64,000 nt of DNA, from positions 1-64,000 of the forward strand of contig JACDOE010000009.1 in NCBI GenBank assembly GCA_017656255.1, read 5' to 3'. The notes beneath the pieces were generated by a model. It searched no databases. It was not told the DNA's origin and saw only the letters and a program-made list of their open reading frames with translations. This stretch comes from Bacillaceae bacterium. GTDB lineage: Bacteria; Bacillota; Bacilli; JACDOE01. Positions 6,522 to 48,346 of the stretch are shown piece after piece. The translations under genes and the position numbers were made by a program. The first letter of the stretch is position 1; each line of letters begins with the position of its first letter.

Positions 6522-9230
6522 ATGAAGATCATTGAGACCAAACTGACAATTCCTGATTTCTCTCCCTATCTGGTCAGAGACAGGTTATTCTCCTACCTGG
6601 AGAAAAATCTTGACCGCTCCTTGATCTGTCTGACGGGTAACGGCGGATATGGAAAAACCACACTTCTATCAAGCTTTGTCAAAATAAAGGAGCTACCGAC
6701 GGTATGGTATCAGGTTGGTTATGCTGATCAATATCCGCACGTTTTTCTCTCCTATATAAAAACAGGGTTAAGCCGCATCATGGGGCAAGAAGGCGTGGAG
6801 GAGCAGGTTCAGCCTGAGTGTGTGGAAGAAGAGCTACAGCAGGTTCTGGCCTTACTCTCGGCCTGGCCAACAAGATTGATCATCGTACTCGATGATTATC
6901 AATGGGTCAATCAGAGCAAGGAAATTCAGGAGATTGTGACAAAGCTGGTGTTTCAGTCAGCAAAAACGGTCACGTTCATGATTGCGAGCCGGGTTCGTCC
7001 TGACTTGCCGCTCGTGAAGCTGAAGGTACAACAAAATCTGGCGGAGTTGAAAACGGGCGATCTGGCTTTCAGTAAAGAGGAAACAAATCAGTTTTTTAAC
7101 CAACTGCATCAGCTTCAATTGCAGGAACATGAAATCGAGTTTGTCTTTAGTCGGACAGAAGGCTGGATAGCCAGTCTGCAGCTCATATACGATTTGATCA
7201 AGGAAAAGAGCCATGAGCAACGTCATCGCTTTTGGTCCGATTTCAAGGGAATTCCCGATGTTTATGAATATCTCGGCAGTGAAGTGCTGGCCTTGCAGCC
7301 GGATGACATCCAGCAGTTTCTGTACAAAACCAGCTTGCTTGCAGAATTGCAAGAGGACATCGTCAATCAGTATTTGGACATCGATCGTACGAAAAGCGTG
7401 CTCGAACATCTCCTGGCACACCATCTGTTTATTTACCGGACAGAAGAAGGAACTTACAAATATCATCAGCTGTTTCGCATGTTTCTGTACGAAAGGCTAC
7501 TCATGCAGTCCAACCAGGAGCAGATCAATGCGTACCACGAAAAGATTGGTCACATCTATGAAGACAGATGGCAGTTGTTTAATGCATTTGCCCATTTTAT
7601 GGCCGGTAAAAACTACATGCGTGCTGCCAACGTGATCCGGCAAATGACGGAGCGCTATCATCCCGATCAATTTATGGTCCTCATGGATGGGTGGATAGAA
7701 ACAATTTCGCCCGACCTTTCGCTTGTGAGCACGAACTCCTTTTTGTTCCGCTGTCTTCCTGTTCCCTTGCTTGATGAGGTTGTTGAGCGATTGGAGGCGC
7801 GAGTGGCTGTCTTGAAACAAGAGCAAAATCCTCTGGCCATCGCCCATTATCAGCATCGGCTGGGAACAAGCCAGTTTTTTCGGGGGGATCTTGACCAATC
7901 ACTGAAGCATTATCAGGAGTCTCTGGAAGCTTCCCGTGAGATAAACGACTATGGCTTGATTGCAATCAATTTAAGCATGCTGGGGCAGGTGTATCGCTTC
8001 CAGAATGATTTGGAGACCGCGATTGACTATATCAAACGCTCATTGTCGTATTCAGAACCGCATGGTATCGCTTTCGCACAAATGCATTCACTGTGGTTGC
8101 TGTCCGAAATCTACCTGGTGCAAAATAATCTTGACAGGGCTGAGCCGCTCATTTGGCAAGCGATAGCTGTTTCCGAGCAATGTGATGAAGCCGCAAAAGT
8201 ATTTTTGTATTGTTCAATGGTAAAATTGCTCCGGTTGCGTGGTGAATACGCGCAGGCGCTCGAGTGGGCAGTCGATGCCCTGCATCATGCTGGCAAATTT
8301 AACATTGATCCGGATATCGGTTGGCTGTACATGGAGATGGGATTGACGTATCTAGAAAACGGACAGAAGCAAGAGGCGAAAACATATCTGGAAAAGGCGG
8401 ATCAAAAGTTAAGCCGGCAGTTGAATTTATATTTCAAGGAAGAGATGGAAAAACTGCAGGCAAAGAGTGGCCCTTCCGTTGAGGTATTGGGAAAGCAGGA
8501 CGATGTGCTGAAGATTCGGACCCTGGGGCCTTTTGAAATGACATATCGGGGACAAGCGCTCCGGTTAGGTCGGAAGTCAAGCCTGCGACTACTGCAATTT
8601 TTTATCGTGAATAGGGATCGGAAGCTGACCAAAGACCGGATACTCGATTACGTTTTTCCCGAAGGCTCGATTCAATCGATCAACAATCATTTTTATGTCT
8701 CGCTTTCGGCACTCAGAAAAGCGTTCGAACCAAAGCTGCAATCAGGACGTAAGTCTCGTTTCTTTATACAGGAGGGTGAACACTATACATTTAGGACGCA
8801 GGAATTGCAGTTGGATGTGGATGGATTTTTACGATTGGCGACGGAGCAGCCTGATGGGCGGATTGAGAGCTTGCGGCAAGCGGAACAGCTTTATCGAGGT
8901 GATTTTTTCGAAGAGTATCCCTATGAGAGCTGCCTGGAAGCGGAGAGGGAAAAGGTGCGCAGCGTCTATTTGAATCTTATGCGGGAGCTGGCAGGCTATT
9001 ACTGGGAGCGCCATGACTACGCCAACAGCATGAGCTATTATGAGAAGATGCTGGAAAAGGACCCGTATCAGGAACAGGTGTATGCGGAGTACATCCAACG
9101 GCTGATTGCTGCCAGGCTTTTCTCGAATGCCAGACAGGTTTCCAGGCGCTACCACAAATATATCGAACAAGAATTAGGCATTCCAGTTCAGGACAAAATC
9201 CGGAAGTTGTTCGGAACATATTCATTGTAG
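6522..9230 (+). CDS. ATPase/TPR/BTAD transcriptional regulator
   Basis: A 902-residue regulator of the MalT/AfsR-like (STAND) class. N-terminal P-loop: GNGGYGKTT near residues 39-47, Walker B LIIVLDDYQW near 119-128. The middle (about 330-640) is helical and TPR-like, including YQHRLGTSQFFRGDLDQSLK and IAINLSMLGQVYRFQNDLET. From about 663 an OmpR-type winged helix follows (LKIRTLGPFEMTYRGQALRL, then KDRILDYVFPEG), and a BTAD domain occupies about 770-902. Proteins of this build couple ligand and ATP binding to transcription activation. Start: GGAGG about 8 bases before ATG 6522, with a second GGAGG upstream. It is divergent from the cupin at 6328, its most likely target. The inducer is unknown. 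Confidence 0.88.
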   Translation: MKIIETKLTIPDFSPYLVRDRLFSYLEKNLDRSLICLTGNGGYGKTTLLSSFVKIKELPTVWYQVGYADQYPHVFLSYIKTGLSRIMGQEGVEEQVQPECVEEELQQVLALLSAWPTRLIIVLDDYQWVNQSKEIQEIVTKLVFQSAKTVTFMIASRVRPDLPLVKLKVQQNLAELKTGDLAFSKEETNQFFNQLHQLQLQEHEIEFVFSRTEGWIASLQLIYDLIKEKSHEQRHRFWSDFKGIPDVYEYLGSEVLALQPDDIQQFLYKTSLLAELQEDIVNQYLDIDRTKSVLEHLLAHHLFIYRTEEGTYKYHQLFRMFLYERLLMQSNQEQINAYHEKIGHIYEDRWQLFNAFAHFMAGKNYMRAANVIRQMTERYHPDQFMVLMDGWIETISPDLSLVSTNSFLFRCLPVPLLDEVVERLEARVAVLKQEQNPLAIAHYQHRLGTSQFFRGDLDQSLKHYQESLEASREINDYGLIAINLSMLGQVYRFQNDLETAIDYIKRSLSYSEPHGIAFAQMHSLWLLSEIYLVQNNLDRAEPLIWQAIAVSEQCDEAAKVFLYCSMVKLLRLRGEYAQALEWAVDALHHAGKFNIDPDIGWLYMEMGLTYLENGQKQEAKTYLEKADQKLSRQLNLYFKEEMEKLQAKSGPSVEVLGKQDDVLKIRTLGPFEMTYRGQALRLGRKSSLRLLQFFIVNRDRKLTKDRILDYVFPEGSIQSINNHFYVSLSALRKAFEPKLQSGRKSRFFIQEGEHYTFRTQELQLDVDGFLRLATEQPDGRIESLRQAEQLYRGDFFEEYPYESCLEAEREKVRSVYLNLMRELAGYYWERHDYANSMSYYEKMLEKDPYQEQVYAEYIQRLIAARLFSNARQVSRRYHKYIEQELGIPVQDKIRKLFGTYSL

Positions 9231-13415: not shown

Positions 13416-14708
13416 TTATTTTCTTAAAACCCCAATAAGTAACTGACTGTACCGAAGTACTGATAACACCACGAGTCCCTGAGTGACCATAAAAAGGAAC
13501 CACCAACCTTCGACCATCGAGATCATCACCCCGATCACGGCAACGGCCAGTAGCAGAAACACCTGTATCCCGCTCCGTTCATCCACCATCTCTTTTAGCG
13601 TTGGCACCCCGTCCTGTCCCACTTGCTTGCTGAACCGGTGCGTCCACCAGAGAAAGGGGATGATTTTGAACAGATATCCCATGATGCTGAACGTCACCCA
13701 GATCATCACAAAGCCATACACGACTACCGCGAAGGCATCCGATTTCCAGGAAACAGGCAGGAGCAGTATCATCACACCCGCCAGGTGAATCAGCCAGCCT
13801 CCCCCGATAGCCAGAAGCGCGAAGGAAAATCCCGGATCCAACTGTTTTTTCATACGTTTCCTCAGAATTCGGCTGATGTGAAAGGCAAACAGGGAAAAAC
13901 CGGTCAAAAGCAGAACGAACCCGATCCGAATTATCCCCGCGGTATCCATCCAAATCCCCGCAAGTGTCGTCAGCAAACCACCCGTGTACAACCCATATAC
14001 CCAGTAGGACGGCATCATGGAAAAACCATGGGATAATGCGAACATGGGTACCATTTTATATGAAAAGCCCATAATCAATAGCGTAAACCAGCCGACCAAG
14101 CCCAGTAGCACATGACTGGCAAAAAGAGCCTCATGGTTGATCGGATACAGAAAGCCTGCGCCGATCGCGTCAAGAAAGATCTTCATCGCACCTGAGATGG
14201 AAACGGCCAGTATCAATCCCGCAAGCAGGGTCGCCAGCAGACTGATGAGAGCCGAAGATACAAACAGGCTGATCATATCTCTTTCTTTTTGTCGCCACAG
14301 CACAAGCCCCATTTGAAACAGAAACAGGAGGGTTCCAGCCAGAACAAGTCCTCCGGCCTCCCGGGCCAGCGAAGGATAAAACCCCAGCGACAAAGCCAGC
14401 AACATCACGCCTGCCGTGGTGATCCCGAACTGGATGAATCCCAGGCGTTCGCTGTAGAGCGGGGTCTGGAAGGTGACAGGAACCAGTTGATACATCGTTC
14501 CCATGGCCACCAGCATGCCCCATCCCAGAACGAGAAAATGGGCGGCCATCCACATGCCGGGGCTGCGGAAGGCCATGTCCATCACCAGAGCGCCATGGAA
14601 CAAGAGAACCAGTTGCCCGAGCAGGAGAGACACCACTCCTGCGCCGATGAACGAAAGAGGAAGGCGGACGCTCACAGCCGTTTTTCCCGTCACCGATGGC
14701 ATCATCAT
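13416..14708 (-). CDS. NnrS/heme-copper-oxidase-like membrane protein
   Basis: 430 residues with about 12 membrane helices. Conserved-looking histidines sit in or beside helices (LLFHGALVMD, WMAAHFLVLGWGML, FASHVLLGLVGWF, LIHLAG, WWTHRFSK), reminiscent of NnrS and of subunit I-like proteins found next to NO reductase genes. A heme or copper role is plausible but not proven. Its start overlaps the stop of the DUF2249 gene at 14705 (ATGATGATG), implying translational coupling. Position in a set regulated by a Crp/Fnr box and facing the quinol NO reductase suggests a task in NO tolerance or NO-reductase assembly. Confidence 0.75.
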   Translation of the reverse strand: MMMPSVTGKTAVSVRLPLSFIGAGVVSLLLGQLVLLFHGALVMDMAFRSPGMWMAAHFLVLGWGMLVAMGTMYQLVPVTFQTPLYSERLGFIQFGITTAGVMLLALSLGFYPSLAREAGGLVLAGTLLFLFQMGLVLWRQKERDMISLFVSSALISLLATLLAGLILAVSISGAMKIFLDAIGAGFLYPINHEALFASHVLLGLVGWFTLLIMGFSYKMVPMFALSHGFSMMPSYWVYGLYTGGLLTTLAGIWMDTAGIIRIGFVLLLTGFSLFAFHISRILRKRMKKQLDPGFSFALLAIGGGWLIHLAGVMILLLPVSWKSDAFAVVVYGFVMIWVTFSIMGYLFKIIPFLWWTHRFSKQVGQDGVPTLKEMVDERSGIQVFLLLAVAVIGVMISMVEGWWFLFMVTQGLVVLSVLRYSQLLIGVLRK

Positions 14709-14929
14709 CGCTCAGTCCCTTTTTTACGGATGGTGATCTGGTAAGATCCGTCCTCAAGGGGCACCGTCTCATAGATGTAACCCCGTTCGTCCAGTTCTGG
14801 ATATAGAAACAGAGGCTCCCGGTCGTTGATAATGGTCAGCGATTCGTGATCTTCCAGTTTTTCCAGTGCCTCCAGGGTGCGCATCATCGGCTGGGGAGGT
14901 TTCAGCCCCCGGTTGTCCAGTTGCATCAC
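14705..14929 (-). CDS. DUF2249 protein (first of pair)
   Basis: 74 residues, TusA-like two-layer fold of the DUF2249 family: LDNRGLKPPQPMMRTLEAL, then ESLTIINDREPLFLYPELDE. The opening LDxRGLxPPxPM is the family mark and aligns with the sulfur-carrier region of TusA, but no Cys is present, so it cannot carry sulfur by that route. It is sandwiched between the second DUF2249 gene (3 bases away) and the membrane protein (overlapping). DUF2249 genes are commonly seen with denitrification and RIC genes; their chemistry is undefined. Confidence 0.85.
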   Translation of the reverse strand: MMQLDNRGLKPPQPMMRTLEALEKLEDHESLTIINDREPLFLYPELDERGYIYETVPLEDGSYQITIRKKGTER

Positions 14930-14932
14930 CGC

Positions 14933-15175
14933 TCACTCCTTTCTGGTGAAGGTGACAATCCAGTGGTCACTGTTTTTCTTTTCCGCTTGATAATCAAATC
15001 CTTTACGTTTCATAACGGCAAACAGCGGAAGCGGCTTAAACGTCGTGTGCAGGACAAACACATCATCCTGCCCCAGATTCTTGACCGTGTCCATGATCAG
15101 GTGAAAGGGTTCTTCGTTTTTTCGCAGGATATCACGTACATCCAGTTCCACGATGTGGTCGTCATGATTTAGCAT
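14933..15175 (-). CDS. DUF2249 protein (second of pair)
   Basis: 80 residues: HIVELDVRDILRKNEEPFHL and VFVLHTTFKPLPLFAVMKRK, the other common DUF2249 subtype with a conserved H/F-KPxPL turn and an aromatic C-terminal strand (HWIVTF). No Cys. Start: GGAGG eight bases before the ATG at 15175; an ATG at 15181 and a GTG at 15184 overlap the ribosome site. First gene of the minus-strand operon running to 13084; its promoter carries a TGTGA-N6-TCACA box (15240-15255). It may bind a metal or heme, but this is unproven. Confidence 0.85.
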   Translation of the reverse strand: MLNHDDHIVELDVRDILRKNEEPFHLIMDTVKNLGQDDVFVLHTTFKPLPLFAVMKRKGFDYQAEKKNSDHWIVTFTRKE

Positions 15176-15213
15176 AACCATCACCTCCGATGCTAACGCA
15201 AGAGTTTATGCTC

Positions 15214-15255
15214 ATTGTACTAAATAAAAAAATACGGGATGTGAGCGTACTCACA
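15214..15255 (-). promoter_or_regulatory. Crp/Fnr-box promoter of the DUF2249 operon
   Basis: Minus strand: TGTGA-N6-TCACA at 15255-15240, then a TACAAT -10 at 15219-15214. With the usual spacing, transcription would start near 15207, putting the box centre at about -40.5, the class II activator position. There is no -35 match, as expected for an activator-dependent promoter. The box is also the core of the hairpin at 15236-15259. Confidence 0.75.
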
Positions 15256-15259
15256 TCCC
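15226..15259 (-). terminator. terminator of the Crp/Fnr regulator gene
   Basis: A perfect 10-base stem GGGATGTGAG/CTCACATCCC with loop CGTA (15236-15259), 30 bases beyond the stop at 15290 and followed on the minus strand by TATTTTTTTAT. The same bases contain the Crp/Fnr box used by the next operon. Confidence 0.75.
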
Positions 15260-15289
15260 AGTGTTGATTTTCCCCACATGTTCAGGGAC

Positions 15290-15982
15290 CTAGATACCAA
15301 ACAATTCTTCTTTCAGCGTCTTGGTGTTGATGATAATATGCCCGGATTTATCAATGTCAATGCACCCTTTTTTACGGAGATGGGTCAGGGTTCGGCTAAC
15401 CGTTTCCCGGGAGGAGCCGATCATGTTGGCCAGTTCCCGGTTGGTAAAATGGGACGTCAGCCGGATGGCTTCGTCTTCGATTTGTTCGCCGTAGGTTCTG
15501 GCCAGACGGAGAAGCAACATAATGATCTGTTCGTATGTATTATGGAGCACCTGTTCTTCCAGACGGTTGTGAAGGTCCATAATTTTGTCGCCCATTACGC
15601 GAAACAGTTTGATGCTCATACCCGGATATCGGAGCAACAGGTTTTCAAAGTCTTCGATTGCAATAACGACCAGAATCGCCTTTTCCACGATTTCAGCGTG
15701 TGCCGGATAGTCCCCTTTTCGAAAAAAACCGGCATGGGGGAACATATCTCCCGGCTGCAGAATATCAATGATTTGTTCTTTTCCGGACGGGTCGGTTTTG
15801 TAGATTTTGACCTTGCCGGAATGGATAAAGAAAACACGATCCAGCGGATCTCCCTGCATAAATACAATGGCCCGTTCCCGGTATTCCCGTTTGTGGGCGA
15901 TCTCGGCTATCTGGTGAAGTTCGTCTTCCGACATCTCCTGGAACAGATCTACATGGCGAAGTACGTCAACAATTGATTCCAT
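15290..15982 (-). CDS. Crp/Fnr-family regulator without Fe-S cysteines
   Basis: 230 residues. An N-terminal cyclic-nucleotide-binding-like beta roll (about 1-115; IVFMQGDPLDRVFFIHSGKV, IIDILQPGDMFPHAGFFRKG), a long dimerisation helix, and a C-terminal winged helix with recognition helix SSRETVSRTLTHLRKKG. The RETVSR pattern has the Arg, Glu and Arg that read TGTGA half-sites in CRP. There is only one Cys (GCIDID), so neither E. coli- nor Bacillus-type Fnr clusters can form; it is closer to Dnr/NnrR-type NO sensors or to ArcR. It is divergent from the NO reductase and lies upstream of the DUF2249 operon, so it is probably the local switch. Confidence 0.88.
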   Translation of the reverse strand: MESIVDVLRHVDLFQEMSEDELHQIAEIAHKREYRERAIVFMQGDPLDRVFFIHSGKVKIYKTDPSGKEQIIDILQPGDMFPHAGFFRKGDYPAHAEIVEKAILVVIAIEDFENLLLRYPGMSIKLFRVMGDKIMDLHNRLEEQVLHNTYEQIIMLLLRLARTYGEQIEDEAIRLTSHFTNRELANMIGSSRETVSRTLTHLRKKGCIDIDKSGHIIINTKTLKEELFGI

Positions 15983-16107
15983 CTGCTGCCCCTCCTGTCA
16001 GGTGCTCATGGTCAGTGCCCCATTTTTCCCCTGTTTTTATTGTAATCTTCCCCGATGAAAAGATAAAGAAACTTTCCGGAGTTGAGTCATTTAATCTGAA
16101 TCACTGT

Positions 16108-16202
16108 TCACGAACCTGTCAAAAACCAGGCAAGTTCGTGATTAAAATCACAAGCCGGGGTTGAGTAATCTCACGCGTGATCCGGTCCCGTGAAAATATG
16201 AT
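16108..16202 (+). promoter_or_regulatory. NO reductase promoter region with palindromes
   Basis: Three signals. TCACGAAC (16108-16115) pairs with GTTCGTGA (16134-16141). CGTGA-N6-TCACA at 16137-16152 is one base from the Crp/Fnr consensus. TCACGCGTGA at 16171-16180 is a perfect palindrome. A TATGAT -10 lies at 16197-16202, giving a start near 16209, with box centres near -64.5 and -33.5. The arrangement is inferred, not measured. Confidence 0.5.
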
Positions 16203-16245
16203 GAAATCGAAACCCGATCAAAATGTCAAAAGGAGTGATGGGGAA

Positions 16246-18582
16246 ATGGCACAACGGGAAGGAAAAGGCAGCAAAACAGGCTTTCTGAAGTCCATACTCG
16301 TGTTTACGATTATTCTCAGTTTTTCAGTGTTATTGCTGGGAGGTTACTGGATATTCAAATCGGCTGCCCCGCGACCGGCGGAAATCGTCGGGCCGAATGG
16401 CGAGGTGGTCATGACGAAGGATGCCATCATGGGGGGGCAGGCGGTGTTTCAGAAGTATGCGCTGATGGACTATGGGAGTGTCCTGGGGTACGGATCCTAC
16501 CTCGGCCCCGATTACACCGCGGAAGCCCTGAAAGTTTATACGGAAGCGATGCAGGATTATCAGGCCGAGCAGCGGTTCGGACGGCCTTTTGCAGAGTTGG
16601 CTGATGAAGCGAAGACAGTGGTCCGGACTGAAGTCATCGATGAAATGCGAGAGAATCGGTATAATCCAGTCACCCAAACGCTGACCCTGACGGAAGCCCA
16701 GGTTTACGGGGTTACGAAAGTACGGGAATTTTACCGGAACGTTTTTACGGAAGGGGATGGATGGGGTCTTGCCCCCGGATTGATTCAGGAAAATCACATG
16801 CCGCAGGATAATCGGGCCTGGGTGGCTGACGGCGATCAGATCCGGCAGATATCTGATTTCTTCTTCTGGACGGCCTGGCTGTCCAGCACCCAGCGACCGG
16901 GGGATGACATTACCTATACCAATAACTGGCCCTACTATGAAGAAGCGGGTAATACCATGTCCCTGTCCGCCATCTGGTGGAGTGCAGGGAGCGTGACACT
17001 GCTGATTTTGTTCACGGCGATCATTCTTTACTTCTTTTACCGGTATCGTCTCGGGATGGAAGATGCCTATGCGGAAGGGCGTTTCCCGAAACTTGAGCTG
17101 GAGCGGTTGCCGCTGACCCCGTCCCAGTTAAAAACAGGTAAATATATCATGGTCGTGTCGCTGCTCTTTTTTACACAGGCCATGTTCGGCGGGCTGATGG
17201 CCCATTATTATGTGGAGCCGGACAGTTTCTACGGCCTGGACTGGATCTTCTCACTTTTGCCGTTCAGTATCGCGAAAAGCTTCCACCTGCAGCTGGCGAT
17301 TTTCTGGATCGCCACCGCCTGGTTGGCGATGGGGATTTTTGTCGCCCCGATTGTGGGCGGGAAGGAACCGAAACGGCAGGGGACGCTGGTTGACATTCTT
17401 TTCTGGGCGCTGGTCGTACTGGTCGGCGGCAGCCTCATCGGTGAGTGGCTCGGTCAGCGGGGTGAACTCGGAAACCTGTGGTTTCTGCTGGGGCACCAGG
17501 GATGGGAATATCTTGAACTGGGGCGGATCTGGCAGGTGGTTCTCGCAACCGGCATGGTTATCTGGCTCATCATTGTCTGGCGCGGAATTCGTGACGGTCT
17601 GAAACGGGAAACAGACCGCGGCGGTCTGATTCACCTGTTGTTCTATTCATCCATTGCCGTTCCGGCGTTCTATATCTTTGCCTTCTTTATCAATCCGGGT
17701 TCTCACTTTACGATGGCCGATTACTGGCGCTGGTGGCTGATTCATCTCTGGGTGGAAGGTATTTTCGAGGTCTTTGCCGTGGTGGTCATCGGATTCTTAC
17801 TGGTCTTTATGAAACTGGTGACGCGTAAATCGGCTGTGCGCGCCCTCTATTTCCAGTTGATTCTGCTTCTGGGTAGCGGTGTGATCGGCATTGGACACCA
17901 CTATTATTACAATGGATCACCGGAAGTGTGGATTGCCCTGGGCGCCGTATTTTCCGCCCTGGAAGTAATTCCGCTCACGCTGTTGATTCTGGAGGCGTAT
18001 GAACAATACAAAATGATGAAGGATGGCGGTGTGGACTTCCCGTATAAAGCCTCGTTCTGGTTCCTGATCTCAACGGCAATCTGGAATCTGCTGGGGGCCG
18101 GTGTCCTCGGATTTTTGATCAATATGCCTGCAGCCAACTATTTTGAACACGGACAGTTTTTGACGGCGACCCATGCTCACGGTTCGATGATGGGGGTTTA
18201 CGGTATGTTCGCCATTGCGGTGATTCTGTTTACCCTGCGCAGTATTGTCAATCCGAAGGCCTGGAATGACCGCATTCTGAAGGTGTCCGTCTGGGGACTG
18301 AATCTCGGGCTGGCCGGCATGATTCTGATCACCCTGCTCCCGGTGGGATACCTGCAGTTTAAGGAGGCCTTTGAATCGGGATACTGGGCGTCACGGGCCG
18401 CAGATTTCTATCGGCAGGAAATCGTGGAAACGTTGCTCATGTGGCGGGTATTGCCGGATGCCATCTTCATTGTATTCGGTATTTTGCCGTTGCTCTATGT
18501 CAGTGTCAGGGCGATGTTTAACCTGCGAAAAATAACGCACAGGGACGGCGAGAAACTGCCGGTTGATGATCTGTACGATTGA
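16246..18582 (+). CDS. norB: quinol-dependent nitric oxide reductase (qNOR)
   Basis: 778 residues; reduces NO to N2O using menaquinol at the membrane. The N-terminal part is one anchor helix plus a large extracytoplasmic domain with GGQAVFQKYALMDYGSVLG, the qNOR-specific extension that replaces the NorC subunit. The C-terminal part is a heme-copper-oxidase-like core of 12 helices with metal-ligand histidines in WWLIHLWVEGIFEVFAV, IGIGHHYYYNGSPEVW and LTATHAHGSMMGVYG. Start: ATG 16246 with AAAAGGAG 10 bases upstream; an in-frame GTG at 16177 lies upstream of the proposed promoter and lacks a ribosome site. It is divergent from the Crp/Fnr gene and followed by the radical SAM gene. Confidence 0.95.
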   Translation: MAQREGKGSKTGFLKSILVFTIILSFSVLLLGGYWIFKSAAPRPAEIVGPNGEVVMTKDAIMGGQAVFQKYALMDYGSVLGYGSYLGPDYTAEALKVYTEAMQDYQAEQRFGRPFAELADEAKTVVRTEVIDEMRENRYNPVTQTLTLTEAQVYGVTKVREFYRNVFTEGDGWGLAPGLIQENHMPQDNRAWVADGDQIRQISDFFFWTAWLSSTQRPGDDITYTNNWPYYEEAGNTMSLSAIWWSAGSVTLLILFTAIILYFFYRYRLGMEDAYAEGRFPKLELERLPLTPSQLKTGKYIMVVSLLFFTQAMFGGLMAHYYVEPDSFYGLDWIFSLLPFSIAKSFHLQLAIFWIATAWLAMGIFVAPIVGGKEPKRQGTLVDILFWALVVLVGGSLIGEWLGQRGELGNLWFLLGHQGWEYLELGRIWQVVLATGMVIWLIIVWRGIRDGLKRETDRGGLIHLLFYSSIAVPAFYIFAFFINPGSHFTMADYWRWWLIHLWVEGIFEVFAVVVIGFLLVFMKLVTRKSAVRALYFQLILLLGSGVIGIGHHYYYNGSPEVWIALGAVFSALEVIPLTLLILEAYEQYKMMKDGGVDFPYKASFWFLISTAIWNLLGAGVLGFLINMPAANYFEHGQFLTATHAHGSMMGVYGMFAIAVILFTLRSIVNPKAWNDRILKVSVWGLNLGLAGMILITLLPVGYLQFKEAFESGYWASRAADFYRQEIVETLLMWRVLPDAIFIVFGILPLLYVSVRAMFNLRKITHRDGEKLPVDDLYD

Positions 18583-18655
18583 TTGCATTAAAAACTGGTG
18601 AGTCCGCCGCAGACAGGGGCGGGCTCTCCCCTGAGAGCGGAAGGAGGCGATGACT

Positions 18656-19795
18656 GTGTTTAACCGTGATTATCATGAAAACCCGTTTATTGTCATCTGG
18701 GAAGTCACCCGCGCCTGTCAGTTGAAATGCCTGCACTGCCGGGCAGAAGCCCAGGACAAACCGGATCCGCGGCAGCTTGACCATGAAGAAGGAAAACGCC
18801 TGATCGACCAGATCAGGGAAATGGGCAACCCGCTCCTCGTGTTTACCGGCGGTGACCCGTTGATGCGGGAGGATCTGTTTGACCTGGCGGAATACGCTGT
18901 GGGAAAAGGGTTGCATATATCGATGACACCCAGTGCCACCCCGCTGGTGACGAAGGAGGCCATTCGCCGTGCGAAGGAAGTGGGCCTCTCCCGCTGGGCG
19001 TTCAGTATTGACGGTCCCGATGCCCGCATTCATGACCGATTTCGGGGGACGTCCGGATCATTTGATCTGACGATGCGGGCCATAGCCTATCTGCAGGAAC
19101 TGGATATCCCTCTGCAGATCAACACCACCGTCTCCCGTTACAATAAGGATCACCTGGATGAGATGGCGCGGATGATGGAAGAGTTGGGAGTTGTGTTGTG
19201 GAGTGTGTTTTTCCTCGTTCCTACCGGGAGAGGAAAACAGGATGACATGTTGAGCCCCGTGGAACATGAAAAAACGCTGCAGTGGCTGTATGAACAGAGC
19301 AAGCTGGTTTCATTCGATATTAAGACGACAGCGGCCCAGCATTACCGGCGGGTGGTGATTCAGAACCGGATGAGGGAACGGATGGATCGAGGATCTGATG
19401 GAGACACCGCGATTCGTTATGAGGATGTACTGGTTGAAGGAGGAACCGGCCGGATTGACGGACTGGGTCGGGCACCGAAAGGAGTAAATGACGGGAACGG
19501 ATTTGTGTTTATCTCCCATACGGGAGACGTCTATCCCAGTGGTTTTCTTCCCATTCGCTGCGGCAACGTCAGAAACACGCCTCTGGCGGAGATTTATCGT
19601 GATCATGAAGTTTTTCGAAATTTACGTAATCCCGACCTGTATAAAGGTAAATGCGGTGTGTGTGAGTTCCGGCATGTGTGCGGTGGGTCACGCTCCCGTG
19701 CCTACGCGCTGACCGGTGATTATCTGGCTAGTGAACCCTGCTGTGTCTATATACCGGAAGCGTATCGAAAAAGAGTCGGATCAACGGATAAATGA
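18656..19795 (+). CDS. radical SAM/SPASM protein (TIGR04053-like)
   Basis: 379 residues, cytoplasmic. The radical SAM cluster CQLKCLHC follows WEVTRA near the N-terminus; FTGGDPLMREDLFDL is the GGE-like SAM loop. The C-terminal SPASM-type region has Cys in KCGVCEFRHVCGGSRSRAYA and SEPCC, enough for a second 4Fe-4S cluster. It resembles the group annotated TIGR04053, related to NirJ and AhbD heme enzymes and to peptide maturases; no precursor peptide was seen nearby. Start: AAGGAGG is 8 bases before GTG 18656; ATG 18650 would be only 2 bases away. Its place between norB and ric suggests a link to NO or heme metabolism, which is inference. Confidence 0.85.
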   Translation: MFNRDYHENPFIVIWEVTRACQLKCLHCRAEAQDKPDPRQLDHEEGKRLIDQIREMGNPLLVFTGGDPLMREDLFDLAEYAVGKGLHISMTPSATPLVTKEAIRRAKEVGLSRWAFSIDGPDARIHDRFRGTSGSFDLTMRAIAYLQELDIPLQINTTVSRYNKDHLDEMARMMEELGVVLWSVFFLVPTGRGKQDDMLSPVEHEKTLQWLYEQSKLVSFDIKTTAAQHYRRVVIQNRMRERMDRGSDGDTAIRYEDVLVEGGTGRIDGLGRAPKGVNDGNGFVFISHTGDVYPSGFLPIRCGNVRNTPLAEIYRDHEVFRNLRNPDLYKGKCGVCEFRHVCGGSRSRAYALTGDYLASEPCCVYIPEAYRKRVGSTDK

Positions 19796-19819
19796 TGTTG
19801 ATGAAAAACACAGACAACG

Positions 19820-19862
19820 TGTGATGCGCGTCACGCTGGCCATATTTTTACTATTGTACACT
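19820..19862 (+). promoter_or_regulatory. Crp/Fnr-box promoter of ric
   Basis: TGTGA-N6-TCACG at 19820-19835 matches the Crp/Fnr consensus in nine of ten fixed bases. TACACT at 19857-19862 as -10 gives a start near 19869 and a box centre at -41.5. The gene follows at 19896. Confidence 0.7.
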
Positions 19863-19895
19863 TTTGATACAGAATAGTGAGGAGGGGAAAATGTC

Positions 19896-20600
19896 ATGCC
19901 GCACGTTTTTAATCGCTCGATGAAGGTCGGTGATATTGTCAACCGGTTTCCGGGAGCTGCCGAAGTTTTTAAACAATACCGCATTGATTTTTGCTGTGGC
20001 GGAGACAGGCCGCTCAATGATGCCGTCCGGGATCAGAATCTGGATGTGGATGACGTTCTTGAAAATCTGCATGCCTCTTATGAAAAGGAACAACACCGTC
20101 AGAACAGGAGCATTGATTGGACAAAGGCTTCCTACGGCGAGTTGATTGACCATATTATCTACAAACACCATGCCTTTTTGAAAGAGGAGTTGCCGCTGGT
20201 CAGCCAGTACACGACCAAAATATTCCGTGTTCACGGGTTGTCCCATCCCGAACTGGCTGACGTGCACAGATTGTTTCACCAGTTGAAAATCGATCTGGAA
20301 CATCATATGGAGCGGGAGGAGAAGGATGCGTTTCCGCTGATTCGGGACTATGAGCATGACCCGGGAGATGAACAGCAACATCATCTGAAACAGGTGATTG
20401 AGGATCTGGAAGCAGAACATGATACAGCGGGAGATATTTTGAAGAAGCTGAGTGAAGTGACAAGTGATTATACGCTTCCGGAAGATGCCTGTGGTTCCTA
20501 CCGGTTGACCTATCAGAAACTGAAGATGATTGAATCCGATATGTTTGATCATGTGCATCTGGAAAACAACGTGCTTTTTCCACGGGTGATGGGGTCGTAA
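19896..20600 (+). CDS. ric: iron-sulfur cluster repair di-iron protein RIC
   Basis: 234 residues, family ScdA/YtfE. The N-terminal ScdA domain (DIVNRFPGAAEVFKQYRIDF followed by CCGG) carries the paired Cys. The C-terminal hemerythrin-like bundle supplies iron ligands in YKHHAFLKEELP, LEHHMEREEKDAFPLI, EAEHDTAGDIL and DHVHLENNVLFP. Family members restore Fe-S clusters broken by NO or peroxide and may release NO. Start: GAGGAGGGG about 8 bases before ATG 19896. The gene has its own Crp/Fnr-type promoter and sits in the NO island, so induction by low oxygen or NO is expected. Confidence 0.95.
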   Translation: MPHVFNRSMKVGDIVNRFPGAAEVFKQYRIDFCCGGDRPLNDAVRDQNLDVDDVLENLHASYEKEQHRQNRSIDWTKASYGELIDHIIYKHHAFLKEELPLVSQYTTKIFRVHGLSHPELADVHRLFHQLKIDLEHHMEREEKDAFPLIRDYEHDPGDEQQHHLKQVIEDLEAEHDTAGDILKKLSEVTSDYTLPEDACGSYRLTYQKLKMIESDMFDHVHLENNVLFPRVMGS

Positions 20601-21448: not shown

Positions 21449-21925
21449 CTACTCGTTAACAGCAGATTGTACAATTTGCAGGGCATTTTCCCCGGCATAA
21501 TCAGTGGCTTCCGCTTTGACAATGTATCCGTCTTTCACAATGGCATAACCCCGTTCCGGCCAGAGCTGATTTTGCTGATCTTTGATGATCAGGCCGAACG
21601 TCTGGTGAAATGTTAAGTCGGAGACGGGCATGACAGGGAAAACAAGACCCAGTTCTTCCTTCATGTTCTCAACCGCTTGAGGGGTCCCCGGTACGATGAC
21701 GTGAATTTCAGCATTCGGGTCCTGGATATCCGGCCAGTTTTCATTCAGCTTCACGAGCTGATCCCGACAGGTCGGTCAGGTTGGCGATGTAAACAGGAAA
21801 AACACGTGGGTCCCGTTTTGATATTCTTGCATATCGGCGGGCAGTCGATTCCCGTTGTCTCCCATACTACATGCGGTGAAAAGGATGGAGATGATCATGA
21901 ATAGTCTCAGGGTTTTTTGTGTCAT
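21449..21925 (-). CDS. selenocysteine thioredoxin-like lipoprotein (UxxC)
   Basis: 158 residues when the TGA at 21778-21776 is read as Sec50. ATG 21925 has AAAGGAA upstream. Residues 1-18 are a lipoprotein signal ([12 protein letters not shown]) with lipid-modified Cys19. The thioredoxin-fold strand HVFFLFTSPT runs straight into U-P-T-C (50-53), the position of the CxxC motif, then RDQLVKLNENW. The rest (VIVPGTPQAVENM, FPVMPVSDLTFHQTFG) fits a peroxiredoxin/TlpA-like domain. A short hairpin lies 14 nt after the TGA. Read with a stop, the only product is a 49-residue stub, while a frame with a perfect fold continues. It is probably an extracytoplasmic thiol or peroxide enzyme. The two other Sec genes in the window support this reading. 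Confidence 0.82.
21745..21761 (-). promoter_or_regulatory. SECIS-like hairpin in the lipoprotein gene
   Basis: A six-base perfect stem TCAGCT/AGCTGA with loop CGTGA, beginning 14 nt after the in-frame TGA. Its size and place fit a bacterial SelB-binding element, although the loop differs from the GGUCU of fdhF. Confidence 0.5.
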
Positions 21926-22011
21926 AAACGTATTCCTTTCTTGTGCGAATATATATTATAACAAATTTTATAATATCCTGTCATGATTATTTTAACATAA
22001 TTAAAAACCGA

Positions 22012-22045
22012 AAAATGGGCTGCCTTTTTCAGGACAGCCCATTTT
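22012..22045 (-). terminator. terminator after fdhF
   Basis: A perfect 11-base stem AAAATGGGCTG/CAGCCCATTTT with a 12-base loop, directly after the fdhF stop at 22056; the minus strand continues into TTTTT. Confidence 0.88.
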
Positions 22046-22055
22046 CTATTCTCTA

Positions 22056-24146
22056 TCAGCTTGCCGCCTGTTCCACCTTTTCAATCCTGACCGCACATGA
22101 TTTAAATTCAGCCGTACCTGCTTTTGGATCTATGGCATTAATGGTAAGCACGTTGGTTTCCGCTAGTTCAGGAAAATGAAAGGTCATAAAGACGAGACCG
22201 GGTGACATTTTTTTGCTGATTTTTGTTTTGACCGTTACTTCGCCTCGCCGGGAACTGACCTTCACGATGTCGCCATCCGCCAGACCCAATTTTTTCGCAT
22301 CAGCTTCACAGATTTCAAGGTATTCTTCGGCATTTTTAATCTTCTTGTAATCCTGTGTCTGGACCCCGGTATTATAAAACTGAAGTCGGCGGCCTGTCGT
22401 TAATTGAAACGGGTAGTCTTCATCCGGCAGCTCAATCGGCGCTTGATATTCAACAGGATGGAAGGGGGCTTTCTTTTCATTCGTATCTGACCATAGACGC
22501 TCGTGTAGATACTTGACGCCTCTGTCACTGTCATCGGCATCCCGGCAGGGCCATTGAATGCCTCCGAACTTATCCATTTTTTCATACGTAATACCGGCGA
22601 AATTAGGGGCCACCAGGCGTATTTCATTCCAGATATCTTCAGCGGAGCTGTAGTTCCAATTGGCTCCCATGCGATTTGCCATATCCTGAACAATCACATG
22701 GTCAGGCCGTGCCTCACCCGGGGGCTTAAGCCCCTGTCGGACTCGTTGCACACGTCGTTCCCCGTTGGTGAATGTTCCATCTGTCTCAATCCAGCTTGCA
22801 GCACCGGGAAGGACAACATCTGCCATCCGGGCTGTTTTTGTCATGATAATATCCTGCACGACAAGGAAATCAAGGCCTTCAAACAGTGATTTGACGTGGT
22901 TTCCATTCGCGTCTGACTGGACAGGGTTTTCACCGATGACATAAAGGGCTCTAATTTCTTTTTTATCCATGGCATCCAGCATGGCGCTTTGATGTTTGCC
23001 TTCCTTTGGCGGAACAGGGACGCCCCAGACTTTTTCGAACAGTTTGGTTCCTTCCGGGTCATCAAAATCCCATCCACCTGTGAGGCGGTTAGGCAAAGCG
23101 CCCATATCTCCGCCGCCCTGTACATTGTTCTGGCCACGCAGGGGGTTCAAACCGGAGCCGTATTTTCCAATGTGGCCCGTCAGCAGGGCAAGATTGATTA
23201 AAGCGAAAACATTCTCTGTGCCATTATGATGCTCCGTTATGCCAAGTGTCCAGTTGATGATGGCTCTGTCAGCCTTTGCATACATACGTGCCACTTCACG
23301 AATATCTTCGGCTTTAATGCCGGTGATTTTTTCAGCTTCTTCAGGTGAATATTTTTCAACGGCTTGTTTGTAGGCCTCAAAATGTTCGGTTGCTTGCTCA
23401 ACAAATTCTTTGTGATACAAGTTTTCTTTAATGATGACATGGCCCATGGCGTTTGCCAGTGCGATATCTGTTCCGACGCGTACAGGTAACCATTTCTCGG
23501 CCAGTTTGGTCTGGTCAATTTTTCTGGGGTCAATCACGATCATTTTTGCCCCATTTTTGATACCGCGTCTCATGTGATTAAAAATGATAGGATGACACTC
23601 CTGGGTATTGCTTCCCCAGGCAATAATTAAATCGGTATGTTCTAATTCTTCATAGGAAGTGGTTGCTGCACCTGTTCCGAATACCGCCACCAGACCGGTG
23701 ACGCTGGGAGCGTGTCAGGTGCGGTTACAACTGTCAATATTATTGGTTCCGATAATCGTCCTCATAAATTTGGCTGCCAGATAATTTAATTCATTGGTAG
23801 AGCGGGAAGAACTGAAGCAGCCAAAAGCATCGGGCCCGTATTTTTCCTTAATGGAACCAAACCGGTCAGCGATCAGATCGAGTGCTTCATCCCATGATGC
23901 TTCTACCAGCTCGCCATTTTTACGAATCAGAGGTGTTGTGATACGTTTGTCACTGTTAACGTATCCCCAACCCATTGCTCCCTTGATACACGTTTCTCCA
24001 TGGCTGACCGGGTTGTTTTTGTCTCCTTTGACTGTCGTTATCCTGTTGTCCTCAATGGTTACACGGAGTCCACACCCGGTTCCACAGAAACTGCAAATGG
24101 TGTCCACTGTTTTGGCATGATCTGTGCTTTGGGTTTCTGTTTGCAT
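22056..24146 (-). CDS. fdhF: selenocysteine formate dehydrogenase, catalytic subunit
   Basis: 696 residues when the TGA at 23717-23715 is read as Sec144. It oxidises formate to CO2 with a bis-pterin guanine dinucleotide Mo/W centre. The N-terminal 4Fe-4S ligands are Cys18, 21, 25 and 53 (CSFCGTGCGL, ETCIKG). The Sec context CNRT-U-HAPSVTGL matches the U-H-x-P-S-V-x-G-L of E. coli FdhF, where Sec and the next His are catalytic. Later marks: IIAWGSNTQECHPI, LRGQNNVQGGGDMG, DAFHPV-like C-terminal cap. Its length matches the FDH-H type without extra Fe-S domains, so it needs a separate electron acceptor, not seen nearby. A SECIS hairpin follows the TGA by 11 nt. A naive reading splits it into 143- and 544-residue pieces. 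Confidence 0.93.
23685..23703 (-). promoter_or_regulatory. SECIS element of fdhF
   Basis: On the mRNA, exactly 11 nt after UGA, a seven-base stem CGUCACC/GGUGGCG (one G-U) closes a GGUCU loop. Loop sequence and distance agree with the remembered E. coli fdhF SECIS, the site bound by SelB. Confidence 0.88.
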
Positions 24147-35587: not shown

Positions 35588-35615
35588 GACCGTTTGGTGC
35601 GGCAACACCAAACGG
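35588..35615 (-). terminator. distal terminator of the toxin transcript
   Basis: A perfect 10-base stem CCGTTTGGTG/CACCAAACGG with a 6-base loop; the minus strand continues into TCTTTTTAA. It would end the toxin mRNA about 80 bases past the open frame. Confidence 0.7.
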
Positions 35616-35664
35616 CCTGAGTACAATAGATGATCCCCTCTAAAGGGGTCTGGCTCGGGGAGTC

Positions 35665-35704
35665 GAAATAGACCGCTACCCTCTGCTCAAGGGCGGTCTA
35701 TTTC
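35665..35704. terminator. hairpin at the toxin stop codon
   Basis: An 11-base perfect stem AAATAGACCGC/GCGGTCTATTT (35666-35676, 35693-35703) with an inner CCCT/AGGG pairing. The toxin stop codon lies in the stem. It could end both the toxin mRNA and a converging antitoxin RNA. Confidence 0.6.
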
Positions 35705-35772
35705 CATTTTAGTATAGAAACAATTAACATCCCAAACATGAACATAAGGGATAATGTTTCATATACTGTCAT
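35698..35772 (-). CDS. type I toxin, holin-like (24 residues)
   Basis: MTVYETLSLMFMFGMLIVSI then LKWK. One hydrophobic helix with a short charged head and a basic tail; the opening MTVYExLSLM is that of the putative holin-like toxins of Bacilli and Lactobacilli, whose overproduction damages the membrane. Start: AGGGGG eight bases before ATG 35772; an ATG six bases upstream is too close. It is shorter than usual (about 30-35), ending within the terminator hairpin, so it may be slightly truncated. An antisense RNA antitoxin from the plus strand is expected by analogy and was not located precisely. Confidence 0.65.
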   Translation of the reverse strand: MTVYETLSLMFMFGMLIVSILKWK

Positions 35773-35899
35773 AGGCATCACCCCCTTTCTGGAGGGGATG
35801 AGCCAGACCACCCTTGAGGAGCCGTTTTCTATTGTACCTATTAAAATTGTATCATAAATTTGGAAAATGACACAGACACTAGTAGATTATAAATAGCAT

Positions 35900-47725: not shown

Positions 47726-48346
47726 CTAGATTTTACCGGCGAGGGAGATATCCCGTTTAATTCCCGGCATGCCCGGGACCCAGTTGGCTGGTACACCCAG
47801 CCCTGTTTTACGCCCGAACTGGATGCCCTGGAGCAGGCGAATGATTTCCGGGATATTACGCCCCACTTCAGCAGGATTAATCAATTTGGTGACAATGACA
47901 CCGTCCGGGTCGACAATCACCGTAGCTCTAAATGCCACTCCCGCCTGTTCATCGAGTACACGGTAAGCCCGGCTGATCTGCTGGTTCCGGTCACTGATCA
48001 GCGGGAACTGGATCCGGCTGGCGGATGGTGACACCTCGGTAAACACCTTGTGGGCAAAGACACTGTCTGTACTGATTCCCCATACAACAGCATTCAGCTT
48101 TTTGAATTTTTCATATATAGCAGCGACCGCTGCCAGTTCGGTCGGTCAAACAAATGTAAAATCGCTGGCATAAAAAAATAACACCACCCACTTACCCCGA
48201 TAATCTTCCAGTCTCAATTCTTTAATTTTCCGATTCACATAGGCTTCAGCGGTAAAAAGGGGAGCCATGTCACCACGTGTCGCACAAAAGGGAAGCGGGC
48301 ACTGTGTCAGTTCTTCAACTCCGGGGACATGATTGCTGTTTTTCAT
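47726..48346 (-). CDS. selenocysteine peroxiredoxin
   Basis: 206 residues when the TGA at 48148-48146 is read as Sec67. Typical AhpC/TSA fold: [19 protein letters not shown], where the family has DFTFVCPTEL with the peroxidatic Cys; then [35 protein letters not shown] and [16 protein letters not shown] 48346 follows AGGAG-like bases. Only the stop separates it into 66- and 106-residue readings. There is no C-terminal resolving Cys; an unusual N-terminal CPLPFC pair (residues 16-21) might serve, or an outside thiol. Reduces peroxides. A SECIS-like hairpin lies 10 nt after the TGA. Downstream gene order is convergent with the fructosamine kinase. Confidence 0.92.
48118..48135 (-). promoter_or_regulatory. 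SECIS-like hairpin of the peroxiredoxin gene
   Basis: UGGCAGC/GCUGCUA stem (one G-U) with loop GGUC, starting 10 nt after the UGA. The loop shares GGUC with the fdhF element. Confidence 0.78.

Follow-up and report, generated by a model that had tools for sequence, protein, structure and literature searches.

A predicted selenocysteine-containing lipoprotein redoxin in Bacillaceae and related Bacilli

The gene and its surroundings in the window

The window, by which we mean the whole stretch of 64,000 nucleotides that was analysed, carries on its minus strand a gene of 158 codons followed by a TAA stop, and the single interruption of this frame is a TGA at codon 50 (Sec50) within the motif T-U-P-T-C. 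The preliminary description had placed this TGA at the first position of a thioredoxin-type motif (U-P-T-C) in a protein with a lipoprotein signal peptide, with a hairpin 14 nt further on, and all of this was borne out by the features listed here.

21449..21925 (-): selenolipoprotein gene, read from 21925 to 21449
21872..21925 (-): signal peptide, residues 1-18 (MTQKTLRLFMIISILFTA), a hydrophobic stretch and then the lipobox
21869..21871 (-): Cys19 of the lipobox FTAC, predicted site of lipid attachment
21776..21778 (-): TGA, Sec50, first position of UxxC
21767..21769 (-): Cys53, second conserved position of UxxC
21745..21761 (-): bacterial SECIS (bSECIS) hairpin TCAGCT-CGTGA-AGCTGA, with a 6-bp stem and a 5-nt loop, starting exactly 14 nt after the TGA
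21755-21751 (-): apical loop of the hairpin, beginning 20 nt after the UGA
21551..21553 (-): Arg125 of an RG motif
21955..21984 (-): promoter-like site ATGACA-18-TATAAT just upstream of the gene, an 11/12 match with TG before the -10 (extended -10)
22011..22046 (-): intrinsic terminator-like site after fdhF, parting it from the selenolipoprotein gene
22056..24146 (-): fdhF, a molybdopterin formate dehydrogenase gene upstream, with Sec144 in NRTUHAP (TGA 23717-23715)

A Shine-Dalgarno sequence, AAAGGA, lies ahead of the selenolipoprotein gene. Standard ORF calling of the window reported only a 101-aa GTG frame after the TGA. The 108-codon frame past the TGA would have stayed open by chance with a probability of about 0.3% at the local base composition, and GC3 is 0.57 before the TGA and 0.56 after it, which means that the coding signal runs across the TGA. 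The layout of signal peptide and lipobox is common to essentially every homologue, and the lipobox pattern [LVI..][ASTVI][GAS]C was found in all the scanned family members but one, L102, where the site is a less strict LLEAC. Genes of this kind are split at the TGA by standard ORF calling and are probably widely mis-annotated.

The fdhF gene has a hairpin of its own (CGTCACC-GGTCT-GGTGGCG), and its frame ends in a TGA used as a normal stop. It had been pointed out that selenium genes are close together here, and fdhF is indeed upstream with its own Sec codon, but this nearness looks incidental because a terminator intervenes and the selenolipoprotein gene has its own promoter; an operon link with fdhF was rejected on these grounds. 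On the other side, a nitric-oxide/denitrification-like cluster at 13416-20600 that contains qNor (NorB), a radical SAM protein, a ScdA/RIC-type hemerythrin and a Crp/Fnr regulator is convergent with the selenolipoprotein gene, and no copper genes adjoin the locus.

Elsewhere in the window, at 47891-48274 (-), an AhpC/PrxU-like peroxiredoxin is a second thioredoxin-fold gene with an in-frame TGA (48148-48146, FVUPTE), and the hairpin TGGCAGC-GGTC-GCTGCTA follows this TGA. The window's genome also has four other AhpC/TSA genes, each interrupted by a single in-frame TGA (L001, L003, L008 and L017), their motifs being Bcp TPGUT, Prx TPVUG, Prx TGNUE and SelL-like GUPIC. With fdhF, the PrxU-like gene and the selenolipoprotein, this genome has at least seven candidate selenoproteins, which is many for a member of Bacilli. 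A BsrG type I toxin-antitoxin RNA (125 bits) was also detected at 35591-35836 (-).

Selenocysteine at the TGA codon

When 61 genomes of the same class, the window's genome among them, were searched, one clear homologue with 34% identity and with an aligned TGA and lipobox was found. A search of 400 Bacilli genomes, in which a limited number of candidates was scored per genome, gave additional TGA forms and a single Cys form, G085 (FTCSACRYQL), whose TGC codon aligns exactly at the TGA site; a Cys homologue at this site was what the preliminary description had proposed to look for, along with the gene itself in other Sec-using Firmicutes, and the gene proved to be widespread in Sec-using Bacilli. 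The alignment of nine sequences was too diverse to serve a pattern scan. Peptide patterns placed wholly downstream of the Sec residue, and hence with no bias towards TGA, gave 67 loci when 84,980 species genomes were scanned. Of these, 66 have TGA at the site and none has Cys, the 67th being a fragment without the Sec site; the TGA form is thus known from 66 named loci and from further genomes. Dozens of independent genomes whose proteins are 20-35% identical share this TGA. With a rebuilt profile, family members in Bacilli scored 81-250 bits against at most 56 bits for ordinary redoxins. In the Firmicutes-wide sample, where again a limited number of candidates was scored per genome, no true family member was found outside Bacilli and the matches there were ordinary redoxins at about 50 bits; neither the viral contigs searched nor the plasmids searched by tblastn gave a relative. 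Paralogues within the window's genome were sought by family search. A second copy in another genome (L059 in G170, near 8433) belongs to subfamily a and has TGA at the site, and its frame shifts just past the hairpin; this frameshift is either real or an assembly error, and L059 was excluded from the hairpin covariation count.

The bacterial SECIS model calls for a loop of 3-9 nt with a G in its first two positions, a stem of 4-16 bp, a distance of 16-37 nt from the UGA and a minimum free energy of -7.5 or lower. The hairpin has 6 bp, a CGTGA loop and a distance of 20 nt, and its 51-nt fold has -13.4 kcal/mol, all of which fit the model, as the preliminary description had proposed to test; the hairpin taken alone has -6.1 kcal/mol. 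The folding energy of the hairpin region in the single sequence was not significant (z -1.23). In 69 sequences the hairpin keeps a constant position after the TGA with 98.8% of cells paired, a value reached by 0 of 500 shuffles, and two stem pairs covary (AU/GC 36/30 and GC/UA 57/7); the same stem was recovered by RNAalifold. The inner stem is intact in 69 of 70 sequences compared to 53.6±2.1 after codons were permuted with the amino acids kept, a control that leaves shared ancestry in place, and position 2 of the loop is G in 70 of 70, as the model requires. The Cys form has neither an intact covarying pair nor the loop G. Since the QLVxL motif is encoded by the stem, its conservation in the protein is partly an RNA effect. 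For the status of this gene as a predicted selenoprotein gene the comparative evidence is decisive, and the single-sequence fold is uninformative.

In the window's genome selA, selB and tRNA-Sec are clustered on contig C8 (4892-9510, L068), together with the gene for the binding protein of a selenate ABC transporter (TIGR04553). Among the 400 Bacilli genomes selA was found in 85, and it was present in all nine carriers of the TGA form (P = 6e-7) and in eight of eight further named carriers, that is, in 17 of the 17 TGA-form genomes checked. A tRNA-Sec was likewise found in the window's genome and in 9/9 other carriers tested (10/10), whereas the genome with the Cys form gave no match to selA and none to tRNA-Sec. 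These genomes show the predicted exchange of Sec for Cys to be tied to the presence or absence of the Sec machinery.

It is almost certain, on this comparative evidence, that the TGA-interrupted gene encodes a Sec-containing lipoprotein redoxin, in which SelB would insert Sec at the UGA. Decoding of the TGA by some other tRNA, as Cys or as Trp, would likewise hold the frame open, but it is very improbable considering the strict co-occurrence with selA and tRNA-Sec, the conserved SECIS with its loop G, the use of TGA as a normal stop in fdhF, and the occurrence of the Cys form only where selA and tRNA-Sec are absent and the hairpin is broken. That the locus is a pseudogene, that the TGA is a sequencing error or that translation restarts beyond it to give a 101-aa protein, as the short frame from standard ORF calling might suggest, can practically be dismissed, being refuted by the recurrence of the TGA in divergent genomes, by the signal peptide upstream of it and by the UxxC that spans it. 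The family is almost always in the Sec form, with dozens of relatives across many Bacillus-related genera. Selenoproteins are usually linked to anaerobes, and the Bacillus-related carrier genera are mostly aerobic or facultative. What the family presents, therefore, is a Sec form in mostly air-tolerant Bacillus relatives that is predicted to face the outside of the membrane and at some loci lies beside oxidase-assembly genes, and this raises the question what favours the retention of Sec in an extracellular position in the presence of air.

Fold, neighbouring genes and proposed function

AlphaFold2 run on the family alignment gave a thioredoxin-superfamily fold with a pLDDT of 90, for which the best fold matches were PrxQ/Bcp, with ResA lower in the list (TM 0.62-0.71); the model shows a peroxiredoxin/ResA-like fold. 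By profile the closest solved relatives are the AhpE/Bcp peroxiredoxins (E 1e-11 to 1e-12). In these profile and fold alignments Sec50 is opposite the Thr of PxxxTxxC, Cys53 is opposite the peroxidatic Cys and Arg125 is opposite the catalytic Arg, and Sec50 is at the position of the attacking Cys of thioredoxins, so a thioredoxin-like UxxC is combined with a peroxiredoxin-like scaffold. The invariant residues of the family are Cys19, Phe43, Thr46, Sec50, Cys53, Gln56, Leu57, Leu60, Arg125, Gly126 and Gly133. Of the typical peroxiredoxin pattern, PxxxTxxC plus Arg, the Arg is kept, the Pro is absent and the Thr is replaced by Sec or Cys, and the pattern as a whole was not found. It had been stated that the protein does not obviously match a named selenoprotein family. 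That holds insofar as no NCBIfam family (June 2026) reaches its cut-off with these sequences, the scores being 17-36 bits against 120 for the SelL-related redox protein NF040769, 17-21 against 170 for ResA NF002854 and 13-17 against 100 for the TUGYCR redoxin NF053656. Relatives do exist, however, since the Pfam domains Redoxin and AhpC-TSA were matched with E 1e-10 (41.4 and 40.7 bits against gathering cut-offs of 26.6 and 26), AhpC-TSA in 32 of 32 family members.

The genes around the selenolipoprotein gene differ between groups, and a single conserved neighbourhood was rejected, as the gene moves between contexts. At 13 loci of the Halalkalibacter/Alkalihalophilus/Sinobaca/Salsuginibacillus type the order on one strand is CtaG, Sco and selenolipoprotein with gaps of 16-125 nt; at 11 Fictibacillus loci the downstream gene encodes a cupredoxin lipoprotein with a CuA-like CxxPCGxGH motif; and at nine loci, mainly of Neobacillus, a cytochrome c lipoprotein gene is upstream. 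Each of these copper or heme neighbours is confined to one related group and most loci have no such neighbour, and the three associations may represent only three events. In a metagenome-assembled genome of Alkalihalobacillus macyae, some 3.7 kb separate the selenolipoprotein from a redoxin of another kind that carries WUPNC (L108, 4320-4798, minus strand); the hairpin of this second redoxin, GCAGCT-CGGGA-AGCTGC, is at the same distance as that of the selenolipoprotein family.

In Bradyrhizobium TlpA is reported to serve as the reductant of Sco and of CuA subunit II; Bacillus subtilis is reported to be without it, and another reductase is presumed there (PMC6696091, PMC9145763). The copper and heme neighbours in three lineages favour an extracytoplasmic seleno-thiol:disulfide reductase and, together with the TlpA precedent, one that is TlpA-like. 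The lipoprotein would be anchored on the outer face of the membrane, where Sec50 would attack a disulfide (or a peroxide), Cys53 would resolve the Sec50 intermediate by forming a selenylsulfide, and re-reduction of the pair would fall to a CcdA-type thiol donor in the membrane; judging from the neighbours of its relatives, the substrates may be the Cys pairs of extracytoplasmic Sco, CuA-type cupredoxin and cytochrome c. To this reading of mechanism and substrates, taken whole, we give a probability of roughly 0.5. Counting against a reductase is that the peroxiredoxin Arg is kept and the obvious cis-Pro of thioredoxin-like reductases is absent, which suits a peroxidase equally. The more specific proposal, that a Sec-dependent lipid-anchored reductase keeps the cysteines of Sco, CuA-type proteins and cytochrome c reduced on the outer face in largely aerobic Bacillaceae and there fills the unassigned role of TlpA, is tentative and could well prove wrong. 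If it is true, a selenoprotein would serve the assembly of the aerobic respiratory chain, and the question it raises is what reduces Sco and CuA in Gram-positives without TlpA.

The main rival to a reductase is a peroxidase acting outside the membrane on peroxides or peroxynitrite, with either Cys53 or Sec50 as the reducing residue and the other as the resolving one. The profile and fold matches to AhpE, Bcp and PrxQ, the alignment of Cys53 and Arg125 with the peroxidatic Cys and the catalytic Arg, and the NO reductase and ScdA/RIC-type protein among the window neighbours all speak for it; nevertheless, the PxxxT part is not conserved (an invariant Thr46 for Pro and Sec for Thr), UxxC is a thioredoxin-type arrangement, and what adjoins the gene in three lineages is copper and heme proteins and not peroxide defence. 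We regard a peroxidase as a doubtful but serious alternative. The Sec/Cys pair is unlikely to act only as a binding site for a metal or chalcogen (copper, selenite or arsenite), with no turnover chemistry: the Sco and CuA-type neighbours would suit this, Sco itself being a thioredoxin-fold copper carrier (PMC6696091), but the family has no additional invariant His or Met ligand and UxxC alone is a redox motif.

Comparison with known selenoproteins and reductases

As of 2006, three selenoproteins were recorded in Bacillales, and according to a 2026 review aerobic bacteria rarely retain selenoproteins (PMC13188914). UxxC redoxins appear under broad domains in the 2022 and 2026 catalogues, neither of which mentions a lipoprotein, and the 2026 catalogue names no Bacilli, nor a Bacillota family of this kind (PMC13188914). 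The view that selenoproteins anchored outside the cell membrane are seldom described in Gram-positive bacteria has to be qualified, as the 2026 catalogue includes exported bacterial forms, namely the substrate-binding SaoB/SaoX and DsbA/DsbG-like proteins (PMC13188914). Among open-licence papers no description of the selenolipoprotein family was found, and it seems to have no clear match to any family in either catalogue, two entries having been compared by description only.

One of these two entries is the Prx-like thiol:disulfide oxidoreductase selenoproteins (PF00578, UxxC/UxxU; WP_010940744.1), which have the AhpC/TSA fold and UxxC in common with the present family but for which the catalogues mention no lipid anchor, whereas the Bacilli family is a lipoprotein (PMC9312934, PMC13188914). 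The other is the 'Redoxin family protein' of the 2026 catalogue (PF08534, UxxC, HEU0032618.1), which has the same Pfam domain and motif. The SelL-related redox protein (NF040769) is alike in its Prx-like fold with U/CxxC, but its profile is only partly matched by the lipid-anchored family, and the window's genome carries a separate full-length SelL-like selenoprotein. ResA and TlpA are likewise membrane-anchored outside the membrane with CxxC at the start of a helix, whereas the selenolipoprotein has Sec for Cys and a Prx-type Arg instead of the cis-Pro. Finally, the Bcp/PrxQ/AhpE peroxiredoxins, including their selenium forms, are the closest in fold and profile and keep the Arg as well, but the selenium peroxiredoxins have TxxU, with Sec as the peroxidatic residue, and in the selenolipoprotein Sec is three residues earlier (UxxC).
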